From NCBI GenBank assembly GCA_013823945.1, contig PNMZ01000003.1:1-64000 (forward strand): 64,000 nt of DNA, written 5' to 3'. Below, in pieces: positions 1-3,966 of this stretch. The notes below the pieces were generated by a model. That model had not been told where the DNA came from. It saw nothing but the letters and a program-made list of their open reading frames with translations, and searched no databases. Position 1 is the stretch's first letter, and every line of letters begins with the position of its first letter. Origin of the DNA: a bacterium (GTDB lineage Bacteria; Armatimonadota; Fimbriimonadia; Fimbriimonadales; Fimbriimonadaceae). The position numbers and the translations under genes are program-made.

Positions 1-1
1 T

Positions 2-277
2 GTGCGGCGGATCCAGACGATTGAGGAGTGGGCGAGGCAGGCGTGCGGGGCGGATTTGGAATGGGCGATGGGGATGACGTGGTTGTACGGGGAGTTGTGG
101 GGTCAATGGCGGTCGAAAGTTCGGCGGAAGTTGTTCACGCCGATTCCGGAGCCGATGGTGGCGAAGGTGGAACCGAGTCAAGTGGCGCGGGCGCAGGTGG
201 CGGGGTTGCCAAGTTATGGGAAGATCACAGAGCAGGAAAGGCGGGCGATTGCGGCGCGGATGGGGGTGGGATCGTGA
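2..277 (+). CDS. Phage-type late-region protein, 5' end possibly outside window
   Basis: Open frame from a GTG at base 2 to a TGA at 275-277, 91 residues if that GTG is the start; the frame may continue upstream of the window. I do not recognise the family. The product has a Trp/Gly-rich N-terminal half (LYGELWGQW) followed by a basic stretch and a polar C-terminal part, with no clear membrane segment. It lies directly upstream of the repeat cassettes and a broken endolysin, so it is probably a phage structural or lysis-region gene. Its stop codon overlaps the GTGAGTTCA that begins the first repeat unit, exactly as the two micro-genes end in the next units, which suggests the cassettes were inserted or duplicated at gene ends. 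Confidence 0.45.
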   Translation: MRRIQTIEEWARQACGADLEWAMGMTWLYGELWGQWRSKVRRKLFTPIPEPMVAKVEPSQVARAQVAGLPSYGKITEQERRAIAARMGVGS

Positions 278-318
278 GTTCAAAAAGGGGCCTTTTTTGC
301 AAAAATTTGCAGAAGGGG

Positions 319-349
319 TTGACAGCCTGCTTTGAAATGTTGGAAGATA
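319..349 (+). promoter_or_regulatory. Cassette promoter 1 (TTGACA-N19-AAGATA)
   Basis: Consensus -35 TTGACA at 319-324 and AAGATA at 344-349. The same hexamer and 19-base spacing recur in copies 2 and 3, where the -10 reads ATCATA. The spacing is longer than the usual 17, so the -10 assignment is tentative; the -35 is exact in all copies. Confidence 0.5.
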
Positions 350-393
350 GTGTAGATTTACGTTTTGAGTCGATGACGCAGGCGTTAATGACT

Positions 394-427
394 AAGCCGG
401 TGAGCCAGATGGTTCTCCGGCTTTTTT
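394..427 (+). terminator. Intrinsic terminator, cassette 1
   Basis: AAGCCGG (394-400) pairs with CCGGCTT (417-423). The inner arm GAGCC/GGTTC (G-T wobble) extends the stem around an AGAT loop, and a run of six T residues follows the stem's CC-GG-C. It lies only about 40-70 bases downstream of the predicted transcription start, before the micro-gene, so it either ends a ~70-nt RNA or attenuates the downstream gene. Confidence 0.85.
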
Positions 428-487
428 GTAAGCCATTGCATGAGGCAAGCAGGGCCGACCTTTCCTCAGGGTTGGCGGGTGGGAAGA

Positions 488-607
488 GTGTCTGAAGATG
501 AGAAGGGGTGCGAAGTTCATGCGATGGTGCGCGACGGAAGGCATGCGATGTTCACGAACGATGAGATGATCAAGTCAGCTCATAATGCGGAGGGGTGGAG
601 AAGGTGA
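488..607 (+). CDS. Micro-protein of the phage cassette, copy 1 (39 aa)
   Basis: GTG-started frame of 39 codons; an in-frame GTG at 479 would give 42 codons. The product is charged, with core EDEKGC, AMVR, GRHAM, EMIKSA and NAEGWR. The paralogue at 806-925 keeps the same length and frame, with differences concentrated in a few residues (E/K, H/Y, F/L). That argues the frame is translated. No family is recognised and there is no membrane segment or signal peptide. GGGTGGGA just upstream could act as ribosome-binding site. The position between a late-region gene and an endolysin suggests a phage accessory or lysis-timing role, which is inference. Confidence 0.55.
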   Translation: MSEDEKGCEVHAMVRDGRHAMFTNDEMIKSAHNAEGWRR

Positions 608-647
608 GTTCAAAAAGGGCCCTTTTTTCAAAAGATTGCAAAAGAGG

Positions 648-678
648 TTGACATGGAGTAGGTGGGGGTTGCATCATA
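648..678 (+). promoter_or_regulatory. Cassette promoter 2 (TTGACA-N19-ATCATA)
   Basis: TTGACA at 648-653 and ATCATA at 673-678. TTGCATCATAGTA around the -10 is shared with copy 3. The palindrome at 612-627 ends 20 bases upstream of the -35, a position suited to a regulator binding site. Confidence 0.5.
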
Positions 679-710
679 GTATCACGCGTTGATTTAGTGA
701 GTGACGCTAG

Positions 711-744
711 AAGCCGGTGAGCCAGTAGGTTCTCCGGCTTTTTT
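711..744 (+). terminator. Intrinsic terminator, cassette 2
   Basis: AAGCCGG (711-717) pairs with CCGGCTT (734-740), with inner GAGCC/GGTTC pairing, a loop of AGTA and T residues to 744. The loop is the only part that changes between copies (AGAT, AGTA, AAAT), so the hairpin is under constraint. Confidence 0.85.
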
Positions 745-805
745 GTAAGCCATTGCATAAGGCAGGCAGGGCAGATCCTTCCCCCTGGGTTTGCGGGTGG
801 GAAAG

Positions 806-925
806 GTGATTGAAGATGAGAAGGGGTGCAAAGTTTATGCGATGGTGCGCGGAGGAAGGCATGCGATGTTGACGTATGGTGAGATGATCAAGTCAGCTAA
901 TAATGCGGAGGGGTGGAGAGGGTGA
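806..925 (+). CDS. Micro-protein of the phage cassette, copy 2 (39 aa)
   Basis: Paralogue of the 488-607 gene, 39 codons from GTG at 806 (alternative GTG at 797), TGA at 923-925 overlapping the start of cassette 3. The shared residues include EDEKGC, AMVR, GRHAM, EMIKSA and NAEGWR; the N-terminal residue after the start and a handful of internal sites differ. Conservation of length and reading frame despite an indel just upstream supports real coding. The function is unknown. Confidence 0.55.
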   Translation: MIEDEKGCKVYAMVRGGRHAMLTYGEMIKSANNAEGWRG

Positions 926-965
926 GTTCAAATGGGCCCTTTTGTGCAAAAGAGTGCAGAAGGGA

Positions 966-996
966 TTGACACAGAGTATGAGGGTGTTGCATCATA
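966..996 (+). promoter_or_regulatory. Cassette promoter 3 (TTGACA-N19-ATCATA)
   Basis: TTGACA at 966-971 and ATCATA at 991-996, identical hexamers and spacing to copy 2. It would drive the endolysin remnant if the terminator at 1041-1074 were read through. Confidence 0.5.
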
Positions 997-1040
997 GTAG
1001 TACCTTTCGGTTTCGAGTCGATGATTCAGCCAAAAGGTGT

Positions 1041-1074
1041 AAGCCGGTGAGCCAAATGGTTCTCCGGCTTTTTT
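1041..1074 (+). terminator. Intrinsic terminator, cassette 3
   Basis: AAGCCGG (1041-1047) with CCGGCTT (1064-1070), loop AAAT and T residues to 1074. It sits about 80 bases upstream of the endolysin remnant start. Confidence 0.85.
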
Positions 1075-1152
1075 GTAAGCCATTGCATGAGGCAAGCCGG
1101 GCCGACCTTTCCCCAGGGTTGGCCCATTTTATTTTCCGGGAGTGGAGATTTG

Positions 1153-1311
1153 ATGAGTCAGAGTCGCATTTGCCTGGATGCCGGGCACGGAATGAGCAAC
1201 GTGGTTGCGGGTCGGTTTGAACCGGGAGCGGTGGCCGGAGGCGTGCGCGTAGCAGACATTGCGCTCGATTGGGCGAACGAGATAAGGCGAATTCTCCCAA
1301 TTGTTTTCTGA
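1153..1311 (+). pseudogene. Truncated N-acetylmuramoyl-L-alanine amidase (phage endolysin), N-terminal fragment
   Basis: The 52-codon frame reads SRICLDAGHG, then EPGAVAGG, then ADIALDWANEIRRIL. This matches the first strand and zinc-binding His of Amidase_3 endolysins and the usual GAVAGG...EADIAL segment. The family needs about 150-180 residues, including a Glu and a second His zinc ligand; here the frame stops shortly after the first helix. The loss of homology near base 1290-1300 is followed by a sharply more AT-rich stretch and an integrase gene. The break is therefore probably the edge of a second integrated element or a deletion joining phage late genes to an integration module. It is unlikely to be an active enzyme. 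Confidence 0.7.
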
Positions 1312-1560
1312 TGGATAGTAGCTAAACTGTATTGCTTAGTATCACCCACCCAAACTGCTCGAAGGTTTACTAACGCAAATTCTAGGAAATTAAACTCGAC
1401 ATCTCTCTGGTTATAGTTTGCTGCTAAATTTCATATCAATGTACCCACTTCGGAATGACATTGTTTAAAAGTACTTTGACTTCATGGTGAGTGGTGTGTT
1501 GACAACGATTTGAATGGTTTACAAATGGAACCATTCGAAAATGGCAAGAGTGAAAAAAAA

Positions 1561-1875
1561 ATGAGCAATAACGATCCAAAACCCATTGGAACAGATGCGC
1601 AAGGGGCATGTGTTTATTTGGGCTGTTCAGACTCGATGTTTAAAGAGTTAAGAAGTCGTGGATATATACCAGTCGTTCGCAAGAACTGGTATTCGTTTGA
1701 CGACCTAGACCTCGCCATGAGTCGGCTTCGCAACGAAAGAGACGAAGGAGTAAAACGAGTTCGACATGAAGTTACCAACAGCATATCCAGTCAAAAATCG
1801 CCCAGGACTCTGGGCAGCGAAGGGGGTCGATCTGACTACCCTAAAACGAAAGACATACTACGCAAAATGCCCTGA
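1561..1875 (+). CDS. Small helix-turn-helix protein, excisionase-like
   Basis: 104 residues from ATG 1561; an upstream in-frame ATG at 1510 lies inside a possible promoter (TTGACA at 1499) and is less likely. The segment AQGACVYLGCSDSMFKELR followed by YIPVVR and WYSFDDLDLAM fits the MerR-like/HTH_17 fold used by excisionases and by helper domains of integrative elements. The C-terminal third overlaps the integrase gene by about 110 bases in another frame, which is unusual. It probably binds the element's own attachment or promoter DNA and biases integration against excision. This function is inferred from the fold and the neighbouring integrase. Bases 1312-1560 upstream hold no gene and are AT-richer than the host genes. 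Confidence 0.6.
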   Translation: MSNNDPKPIGTDAQGACVYLGCSDSMFKELRSRGYIPVVRKNWYSFDDLDLAMSRLRNERDEGVKRVRHEVTNSISSQKSPRTLGSEGGRSDYPKTKDILRKMP

Positions 1876-2842
1876 AGAAGCAACACGATTGGCGTATAGA
1901 TCGTTCGCCATAGAGCAAGAATATAAGCTGTTCGATTTCTATAGCAGAGTCTATTTGCCAACAGTAAAGCACCGGAGTGAGAATTGGCTAAACCAAATTG
2001 CGTGGACAATGGATCGCTATGTTCTCCCCAGGTTTGGAAATCATGACATCCGTGAAATCAAGAGAGCGGAACTCCAGCAGTTCTTCAATGTTCTGGCGTC
2101 AACTCTGAAGCCAACGACGGTTTCTAAGATGAAAATTGTTTTTTCTGGCGTGCTGCGTCTTGCAATAGCTGATGAACTTATCCAGAGTAATCCAACTGAG
2201 TTTGTACGGCTCAGGGAGCCCCGACGGGAGGAGAAGACTGTCCTGACCCTCGACGAACTTCGCCGACTTATTGAGGCATCGCCTGACATTATTCGGCCCT
2301 TTGTCTTGCTCACCGGATGTTGCGGGCTTAGGCGCGGCGAGGCGTTGGGCGTTACTAAAGGGGCCATTAGTCGAGCAGGCGTCTTGAGTGTCCGGCAGCA
2401 AGTACAGCAACTCCGTGGTGGGGCCATCATATCACCCAAGCTAAAGACAGAGAACAGCTATAGAGAGATCCCTTTACCTACGGGATTGCTCAATCAGCTA
2501 TTGGGAGTGAACTCTGGAAGCAATATCTGGGTGTGCTCAGACAGCAATGGCGGTGGGTTTCTCAAACCGACACTGATTTTGAAAAAACTTACTGAGGCTT
2601 GCACCCTTGCGGAAGTACCTAGAGTATCACCTCATGAGCTCCGACACACATTTATATCGCTGATGGACAATGATATAGAGGCACCTCGGACGGTCGTCAT
2701 GGCTCTAGCTGGTCATGCTCCGCAGTCTACGACTGATGGGTATTCCCACGTTAAAATCGAACAAAAAATCAGGTGGATGAATCGTTTTTGGGATCAGATC
2801 TCTACAGTTTGTGTCCCAGAACAGTGGGCTACAAGGGCCTAA
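1766..2842 (+). CDS. int: Tyrosine recombinase / phage-type integrase
   Basis: 358 residues. The N-terminal part carries a short arm-binding-like region (NRPGLWAAKG, KTYYAKCPEEA) and a SAM-like core-binding domain around LPTVKHRSENWLNQIAW to TTVSKMKIVFS. The C-terminal catalytic domain shows the Arg of GLRRGEALG, a Lys in KTENSYREIPL, HELRHTF (HxxR), AGHA and the nucleophile Tyr in YSHVKI. All expected residues are present, so the protein is likely active. It strand-exchanges element DNA into a chromosomal site, very probably the 3' end of the tRNA-Leu 33 bases downstream. Base composition is more AT-rich than the surrounding host genes, consistent with transfer. Confidence 0.92.
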   Translation: MKLPTAYPVKNRPGLWAAKGVDLTTLKRKTYYAKCPEEATRLAYRSFAIEQEYKLFDFYSRVYLPTVKHRSENWLNQIAWTMDRYVLPRFGNHDIREIKRAELQQFFNVLASTLKPTTVSKMKIVFSGVLRLAIADELIQSNPTEFVRLREPRREEKTVLTLDELRRLIEASPDIIRPFVLLTGCCGLRRGEALGVTKGAISRAGVLSVRQQVQQLRGGAIISPKLKTENSYREIPLPTGLLNQLLGVNSGSNIWVCSDSNGGGFLKPTLILKKLTEACTLAEVPRVSPHELRHTFISLMDNDIEAPRTVVMALAGHAPQSTTDGYSHVKIEQKIRWMNRFWDQISTVCVPEQWATRA

Positions 2843-2874
2843 ATGGTAGGTTCAATTGAACCGAAGCGGATATT

Positions 2875-2961
2875 TGGTGCCCAGGAAAGGACTCGAACCT
2901 TCACTCCCTTGCGAGAACTAGTACCTGAAACTAGCGCGTCTACCAATTCCGCCACCTGGGC
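2875..2961 (-). tRNA. tRNA-Leu(CAG), with encoded CCA
   Basis: On the minus strand the sequence starts GCCCAGG and ends CCTGGGC-A-CCA, a perfect 7-bp acceptor stem. It has the GGCGGAATTGGTAGACGC D-arm typical of leucine tRNAs, an anticodon arm CTAGT-TTCAGGT-ACTAG giving anticodon CAG, a long variable arm (TCTCGCAAGGGA region), and the GGTTCGAGTCC T-arm. The length is 87 nt. The 3' end faces the integrase, so the gene is the likely attachment site. The element's other end, which should carry a copy of the tRNA 3' portion, is not in this window. Confidence 0.95.
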
Positions 2962-3015
2962 ACAGGGGATTCAAATATACCCGCTCGATCATCGCAATTC
3001 GACTGAACTTTGGGG

Positions 3016-3966
3016 CTAGGGAAGGAGCGCGATGGTCTTGCGATCGGGGAGGGGTTTGTCTGAATCTGCGCTCACAATAACGGCACAGATGAACTTTCCT
3101 TGAGTTGCTATATCAATCCGGGCGTGGCGTTTGTCGCTGACTTTGATACTCTCGAAAACGTGGATTCCTTCGACTAACTTAGCAACGGGTTTGGGTTCGG
3201 ATTTGAGCCATTCTTGGTAGCCTAAGGCGGTCAGAAGGCTCTCGGCGGTGATTTGAGAGGGGTTGTCTGAATAGAGTGCGATTTCGGCGGTGGCGTACCA
3301 TTCAGATTCGGAAATGCTCCCGATATATCGTCCAGTTTGTTCCTCGGAGGGGCGGACTTCTGTATTCGCTGATGCCGGTTTGTTGAGCAGAAATCTGAAT
3401 GGTGCGCCAAGTAGCGTGTAAGGCCCGATCGTGCCAATAAGGGCCTTGGGCGTGTGGGTTAATGAGTCTGATTTGAGTTGAACAGATCGAACGGCTTTAA
3501 TTGCATTTGTGTAGTCATCGCCGCCAATATAGGTCAGCCAAGTGATCTCGTACGCTTTGGATTCTGTGCTCAGGGCAGCTGACACGTGATAGGTGTTGAT
3601 TGGGCGTTGGGCGACATCTCTAGTGAGGGCACTTCCGACTAATACGACCATCGGTAGCCCGTTGATTTCGGTAAGTTCGGTCTTGAAAAGTTGGCCAGAG
3701 AAGCCTTGGCGGGTTCGGTTAGCGCGGTCATGGAGATCGCAGATGAGTTGGGGGGTGGGTTTGTTTTCGAGCTTGGCGAGGTCAGTTTCGACCACGCTGA
3801 TGACTTGGGTGATGGCCCCTGATGCGGTTTTGACTTCGGCGACCCATGCGCGAAAGTTGGATTGTTCGGGCTGGGCTTTGAATTCGTGTTCTGTTTGAAT
3901 GAGCAGTTCGCCGAATTGTTGATGTGAGTTTTGGGCCAAAGCCAATGCGAAGACGAAAGAGAGCAC
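3016..3966 (-). CDS. Secreted protein of unknown function
   Basis: 316 residues from a GTG start. The N-terminus LSFVFALALAQ looks like a short or truncated export signal. The remainder is soluble, with alternating beta-strand-like segments (YHVSAALSTESKAYEITWLTY, a repeat of charged turns) and no recognisable catalytic motif. An internal GxIGPYTLLGAPFRF segment and the VSADSDKPLPDRK tail suggest a two-domain extracytoplasmic protein. The gene stands alone between the tRNA and the EF-G-like gene, which is transcribed divergently. The family is not recognised. Confidence 0.6.
   Translation of the reverse strand: MLSFVFALALAQNSHQQFGELLIQTEHEFKAQPEQSNFRAWVAEVKTASGAITQVISVVETDLAKLENKPTPQLICDLHDRANRTRQGFSGQLFKTELTEINGLPMVVLVGSALTRDVAQRPINTYHVSAALSTESKAYEITWLTYIGGDDYTNAIKAVRSVQLKSDSLTHTPKALIGTIGPYTLLGAPFRFLLNKPASANTEVRPSEEQTGRYIGSISESEWYATAEIALYSDNPSQITAESLLTALGYQEWLKSEPKPVAKLVEGIHVFESIKVSDKRHARIDIATQGKFICAVIVSADSDKPLPDRKTIALLP

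Follow-up and report, generated by a model that had tools for sequence, protein, structure and literature searches.

In phages of Gram-positive bacteria, late activators of the ArpU/RinA type are encoded at the end of the early operon, before the late genes; these proteins activate initiation and do not need a terminator between the promoter and the first gene. In phage lambda, where late control works by antitermination, the late leader is 194 nt long. For Q proteins to act, the late promoter must contain both a binding element and a -10-like pause element (PMC9371919, PMC6606751), and in the known systems the binding elements of Q and of AlpA lie in the region of the -35/-10 spacer (PMC9371919, PMC7969949). 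The alpB and PA0807 terminators are located 54 nt and 26 nt after the transcription start, respectively (PMC7969949). For Fimbriimonas ginsengisoli, a cultured type strain, the genome paper describes a 45.5-kb prophage that excises and circularises, and an antiterminator goes unmentioned there (PMC4072686). Our search of the openly accessible journal literature turned up no account of Q-type late control for Armatimonadota.

Here we analysed a 64-kb stretch of DNA (the window), whose left end coincides with the edge of contig C3 in a 3.16-Mb genome. A sequence-only reading had described three tandem promoter-leader-terminator units near this edge and had placed them in a phage late region. The phage origin held up, but the site (window 1-1140) corresponds to the early/late junction in a remnant prophage from which the late genes have been lost, and not to an intact late region (Table 1). 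A second remnant prophage of the same genome, located at a tRNA-Asn gene on contig C5, carries one unit. Contigs C3 and C5 start at the identical point of the gene upstream of the units, which occupies the position of Q, in two related prophages; the assembly was therefore probably broken at a collapsed repeat. The left portions of both prophages, including the primase gene, were not found in the assembly.

Table 1. Coordinates of the features of the window and of related genes elsewhere
Feature	Position	Strand	Remarks
Q-position gene, last early gene, C-terminal 91 aa	2..277	+	cut by contig edge; 46% identity to C-terminal half of Uphvl-Ar1 167-aa proteins
Unit 1, upstream A/T-tract element	281..318	+	GGGGCC core, palindrome imperfect
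Unit 1, promoter-like TTGACA-18-GAAGAT	319..348	+	weak -10, divergent spacer; missed by promoter scan
Unit 1, leader with 5' hairpin	354..395	+	p 0.10 vs shuffles
Unit 1, predicted intrinsic terminator T1	396..427	+	folding energy -19.8 kcal/mol
Short, doubtfully coding ORF separating units 1 and 2	440..607	+	dN/dS about 1.2 vs 791-925; without relatives
Unit 2, predicted promoter TTGACA-18-CATCAT	648..677	+	conserved spacer TGGAGTAGGTGGGGGTTG; promoter scan, unit alignment
Unit 2, leader, 5' hairpin GCGTT..GACGC	683..712	+	p 0.13 vs shuffles
Unit 2, predicted intrinsic terminator T1	713..744	+	
Short, doubtfully coding ORF separating units 2 and 3	791..925	+	
Unit 3, predicted promoter TTGACA-18-CATCAT	966..995	+	promoter scan, unit alignment
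Unit 3, leader with 5' hairpin	1001..1042	+	TACCTT at its start, possible -10-like pause element; p 0.01
Unit 3, predicted intrinsic terminator T1	1043..1074	+	
Second predicted terminator T2 (GGGCCGACC..GGTTGGCCC ATTTTATTTT)	1099..1135	+	17 nt ahead of endolysin start codon
Truncated endolysin (Amidase_3), about 47 codons	1153..1311	+	Pfam Amidase_3 E 0.004, under cut-off
Small HTH protein, excisionase position	1510..1875	+	HTH_17, weak
Tyrosine integrase	1766..2842	+	phrog_1 E 2.5e-48
tRNA-Leu(CAG), presumed attachment site	2875..2961	-	att repeats seen for Uphvl-Ar1 tRNA-Asn prophage only
Truncated endolysin	L004 (G000:C5) 494-760		
Truncated endolysin	L011 14633-14860		
Truncated endolysin	L012 10659-10780	reverse	
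Q-position homologue	G005 L096 114-638	reverse complement	motif W.AV...R...GD..A.P....RG.PS
Q-position homologue	G060 L097 622-1056	reverse complement	same motif
Q-position homologue	G001 L095 514-1053	reverse complement	same motif
Q-position homologue	G065 L098 498-1112		same motif

The three units, at 274-440, 603-760 and 921-1090, are related by tandem repetition at spacings of 317 and 330 bp, in agreement with the tandem arrangement that had been noticed. Two repeats underlie it: D1, which is 223 nt long at 85% identity, and D2, which is 84 nt long and present in three copies at the same two spacings. Every unit opens at the stop codon of the ORF before it (TGAGTTCAAA...) and then presents, in this order, the A/T-tract element, TTGACA, an 18-nt spacer, a -10 sequence, a leader with a 5' hairpin, and the terminator T1. 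TTGACA is present in all three units (319, 648 and 966), as the earlier reading had it, but its common 19-nt spacing gives way to a best -10 of CATCAT after 18 nt, and unit 1 has only GAAGAT; the transcription starts it had put at 356, 685 and 1003 agree with our predictions (~355, 684 and 1002). T1 reads GCCGGTGAGCC-N4-GGTTCTCCGGC-TTTTTT in each unit, with variation confined to the loop, so that the claim of a nearly identical terminator per unit stands. The leader occupies ~30-40 nt before T1, or about 60-75 nt when counted to the end of T1. A GGGCCC palindrome upstream of -35, which had been proposed as a regulator site, is perfect in units 2 and 3, but unit 1 has GGGGCC and the copies outside the window have GTGCCT, AGGTCT and GGGTCT; a role as regulator site is thus unsupported. 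What is kept upstream across copies is the context AAAA-N6-TTTTTT-GC-AAAAAA.

Neither the promoter nor the terminator pattern is a common feature of this DNA. The string TTGACA-N17..19-CATNATAG occurs twice in the 64 kb, against 0 expected and 0 in 100 shuffles. In the whole 3.16-Mb genome, only four sites match the T1 pattern, namely, those in the three window units and in the C5 unit, and this confinement argues that the T1 hairpins are not ordinary terminators scattered genome-wide, the outcome that would have spoken against the earlier reading; an origin as ordinary host terminators was rejected on the same grounds. Between -35 and -10, the spacer GGAGTAGGTGGGGGTTG is kept in five of six units, and its identity across species (81%, unit 1 left out) equals that of the -10 sequence. 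A -10-like pause element, TANNNT, lies at about -1 to +5 in window unit 3 and in the two units of a sister species described below; it is shifted by one position in unit 1 and absent from unit 2 and the C5 unit. The 5' hairpin can form in all six units and is stabler than shuffles in four (p 0.002-0.03), not clearly so in units 1 and 2.

The sister species is Armatimonadetes bacterium Uphvl-Ar1 (CP021423.1), and the units occur in no other of the 85 family genomes outside the source genome; a sequence model of the unit, run against these 85 genomes, returned the six known copies and otherwise weak, chance-like matches. Uphvl-Ar1 has two prophages (A and B) at orthologous tRNA-Asn and tRNA-Leu sites with one unit each, so that the cassette was indeed found in related prophages, as a single unit in the C5 prophage and in both of these. 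In all three it stands directly ahead of a truncated endolysin gene, with about 27 nt from terminator to endolysin start in A. Gene order in Uphvl-Ar1 is a repressor-like gene (-), a D5/DUF5906 primase (phrog_6088, E 3e-112), small genes, the 167-aa Q-position gene, the unit, the truncated endolysin, an HTH gene, the integrase (in B) and the tRNA; a few small ORFs separate the Q-position gene from the unit in B. A hairpin GGGCCGA..TCGGCCC in the Uphvl-Ar1 copies corresponds to T2. The promoter and T1 form islands of conservation in the aligned DNA, flanking a divergent leader: between C5 and Uphvl-Ar1 A, identity is 61% in the Q-position gene, 87% in the promoter, 39% in the leader, 94% in T1 and 42% from T1 to the endolysin, with 91% in the HTH genes and 89% in the adjacent host gene. 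The leaders fall into two sequence types that are mixed among the copies. Searches of IMG/VR with the DNA pattern, the Q-position protein, the primase, the endolysin and the G010 relative gave no result, nor did DNA or protein searches of INPHARED.

Several further observations were made around these elements. Prophage A lies in a 39.4-kb island (L017-L018-L011, G078:C1 about 382350-421808) between 62-bp tRNA-Asn att repeats; the island carries an integrase and helicase-like and AAA/SbcC-like proteins, and no structural genes were found among the nine larger proteins scanned. Beside the Uphvl-Ar1 tRNA-Leu prophage are several tandem Rhs-like C-terminal cassettes (L019 1-2451; L012 15638-19901, minus strand), all with MMSASVLYTNFGGMLVHEDRGGVERTYVHD and each followed by different small ORFs, like an exchangeable Rhs-tip array. 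In G026 (L028 1501-1535, minus strand) there is a hairpin very similar to T1 (GCCGGGAAGCCAGTTGGCTTTCCGGCTTTTTC), which could reflect chance or a shared terminator type.

Discrete promoter-hairpin-terminator genes of this kind, with a 5' hairpin more stable than shuffled sequence in most copies and kept in prophages without late genes, might encode a family of small regulatory RNAs, each folded into two hairpins and made from a promoter and terminator of its own; these RNAs would target phage or host RNAs in trans, and read-through would not matter. We regard this as unlikely, and the small-RNA array that had been offered as one of two explanations is less supported than lambda-type late control: the leader is the least conserved part amid a conserved promoter and terminator, the reverse of what a conserved seed would give, antisense matches to the element are not above shuffles, and Rfam yielded no match in window 1-3200 other than the tRNA. 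A terminated leader may nevertheless accumulate as a small RNA by construction. A P4-like antisense immunity RNA directed against the element's own primase or repressor was also tried and rejected, as no duplex rose above shuffles. A riboswitch or attenuator was rejected as well; the leader diverges, and no conserved alternative pairing was seen.

The position of the unit recurs in more distant phages. Promoter, leader and terminator lie between the regulator-position gene and the lysis gene in four locus copies of two species, and the same layout appears in phages of the genomes G084 (partly, owing to a contig break), G009, G010 and G007, whose promoters are weaker predictions. In G084, which is from the same genus, the primase is 38% identical and the Q-position gene is on a separate contig; the order endolysin, holin-like gene, two small genes, TerS and TerL, all in one direction, indicates that the endolysin comes first among the late genes. 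All four remnant prophages of the two species have a truncated endolysin (about 43-85 codons), and the remnants have 51% identity to the intact G084 endolysin. G009, G010 and G007 share the order of primase, small genes, Q-position gene, about 200 nt of noncoding DNA and first late gene, with endolysins of the CHAP type in G009 and the GH25 type in G010. In G084, G009, G010 (by folding only) and G007, the gap ahead of the first late gene contains a strong predicted terminator, compared with 4 of 32 codirectional gaps of 100-450 nt at the same loci, a set that includes some late-gene gaps. A profile of the G009/G010 protein found four further homologues among 291 genomes of the phylum (G001, G005, G060 and G065), none of which has a terminator directly after it; two of the loci are remnants, and in the other two further genes intervene. 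In G065, the homologue is followed by a 397-aa RtcB-like gene, with the terminase farther on.

Terminators are ordinary at the ends of operons, and ArpU/RinA-type activators also sit at the site of the Q-position gene, so it is conceivable that T1 and T2 merely end the early operon, that the promoter-like sequences are weak or incidental, and that an initiation activator of the ArpU/RinA style turns on the late genes. Two features make this improbable. The promoter sequences are situated upstream of the terminators, and their conservation exceeds that of the surrounding DNA. In addition, as judged from the DNA, a promoter would not fit into the 17 nt that separate T2 from the endolysin start in the window; in G084 and G010, about 15-27 nt lie between the end of the terminator and the start codon of the endolysin, and such a gap means that these endolysins cannot have a promoter after the terminator. 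There is more room in G009 and G007.

The position of the upstream gene suggested Q, and we therefore compared its product with 11 Phage_antitermQ-type proteins from E. coli K-12 and phages. A profile of A, B and G084 scored 28.7 over 93 columns against this set, compared with 12.5 +/- 2.2 (maximum, 20.8) for 100 column shuffles. The independent pair G009 and G010 scored 24.4, a value reached by 0 of 100 shuffles (12.5 +/- 2.3), and all five proteins together scored 26.6. When single sequences were ranked among 198 local ORFs, G084 and B came 1 and 3, G009 came 8, G007 came 36, and G010 came 103. The protein had no match at a useful level in Pfam or PHROGs, a scan of the genome with PF06530 (Phage_antitermQ) gave nothing significant, and an AlphaFold model built from three sequences was too poor for a fold search (pLDDT, 41). 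Since its score falls below the Pfam gathering cut-off for PF06530, we do not assign the Q-position protein to Phage_antitermQ, and the profile comparison offers weak to moderate support for a remote homology to this family without membership.

Our results lead us to propose, as a reading that we hold to be fairly probable, that the ancestral unit was the late promoter, leader and terminator region of a phage with a Q-like antiterminator, as in lambda pR'-tR', because the units combine a promoter, a short leader, one or more terminators, a conserved spacer and TANNNT, the last in half to two thirds of the copies. We infer that transcription and antitermination take place, as well as which protein is the antiterminator and where it binds. 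The sigma-70-type promoter of the unit would fire, and RNA polymerase would make a ~60-75-nt leader RNA, consisting of the 5' hairpin and T1, and then stop. An antiterminator made from the gene directly upstream would load onto polymerase at the unit promoter, and the loaded polymerase would pass T1 and T2 into the endolysin, holin, terminase and structural genes. In the window prophage, tandem repetition has brought this region, together with a spacer of ~160 nt, to three copies. Its late genes have been lost, which is why the region today probably yields leader RNAs only. Of the mechanisms that the sequence-only reading had considered, lambda-type antitermination is the best supported, given the recurring site between the Q-position gene and the endolysin, the terminators in distant phages and the remotely Q-like upstream gene. 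Its gene-by-gene version is unsupported, because a single unit is present in three of the four known locus copies, and the ORFs that separate units are doubtful genes. Against late control stand the weak promoter of unit 1, the presence of the pause element in only three or four of six units, and the four lineages with G009/G010-type homologues that lack a terminator right after them.

How the triplication arose can be read in part from its joints. Where a broken T2 meets the spacer, units 1 and 2 have the joint GGGTTGGC/GGGTTTGC-GGGTGGGAA in common, which is what a tandem duplication that took in both the unit and its spacer would leave. The two spacer ORFs differ at 6, 4 and 4 sites by codon position, which shows no positional bias (dN, 0.12; dS, 0.10), and no relatives were found in the 85 genomes. 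Each unit does precede the next ORF by position, as had been noted, but no signs of selection at the protein level were seen in the ORFs that follow units 1 and 2, and the gene after unit 3 is the truncated endolysin. Integron- or attC-like gene cassettes were considered and rejected, as the nearby recombinase is a phage-type integrase beside a tRNA gene and no relatives of the spacer ORFs were found. The T1 stems do not vary among the three window copies, whereas the flanks differ by 15-20%, which may reflect recent conversion or continued constraint. With the late genes lost, a present-day function of the triplication is doubtful, and we see about an even chance that a unit once functional was triplicated neutrally, which would be compatible with late control.

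A more radical version would give the promoter- and terminator-like sequences themselves no defined regulatory role: they would be products of decay or of chance in a dying prophage, and their triplication would be only neutral tandem duplication. The loss of the late genes, the truncated endolysin, the degraded promoter of unit 1 and the spacer ORFs without selection all fit this view, but the conservation of the promoter and T1 as islands across species and the recurrence of the arrangement in distant phages make it very unlikely. Finally, these elements might be phage satellites in which repeated late-promoter units were kept and multiplied as a trap that binds or answers the late antiterminator of a helper phage. 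We consider this highly improbable; if it were true, the short leader RNAs would let the satellite sense or dampen the late programme of its helper.

If late control is the correct reading, it would place lambda-type late antitermination in phages of Armatimonadota, which are almost unstudied, reveal a very divergent group of Q-like proteins with their natural cis sites, and provide a case in which the late switch itself has been tandemly multiplied. The arrangement shares with lambda Q/pR'/6S/tR' and its relatives in phages 21 and 82 a putative regulator gene, a predicted sigma-70 promoter, a short leader, a predicted intrinsic terminator and lysis genes, all in one direction, and the regulator site, which is embedded in the promoter in lambda, would be expected there in the units as well. 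Unlike lambda, the leader is about 60-75 nt to the end of T1, there are two terminators, the window has three tandem copies, the Q-position protein is only remotely Phage_antitermQ-like, and the host belongs to a different bacterial phylum. The units also resemble the AlpA/alpBCDE system of Pseudomonas aeruginosa, a Q-like processive antiterminator whose binding element lies between -35 and -10, the place of the conserved spacer in the units, and whose targets have a terminator 26-54 nt after the start, with leaders as short as those of the units, and lysis genes downstream (PMC7969949, PMC9371919), although the alp system is located on the bacterial chromosome. Together, these comparisons suggest that a known type of switch, that of lambda late control, is present in Armatimonadota and has been tandemly triplicated at this locus.
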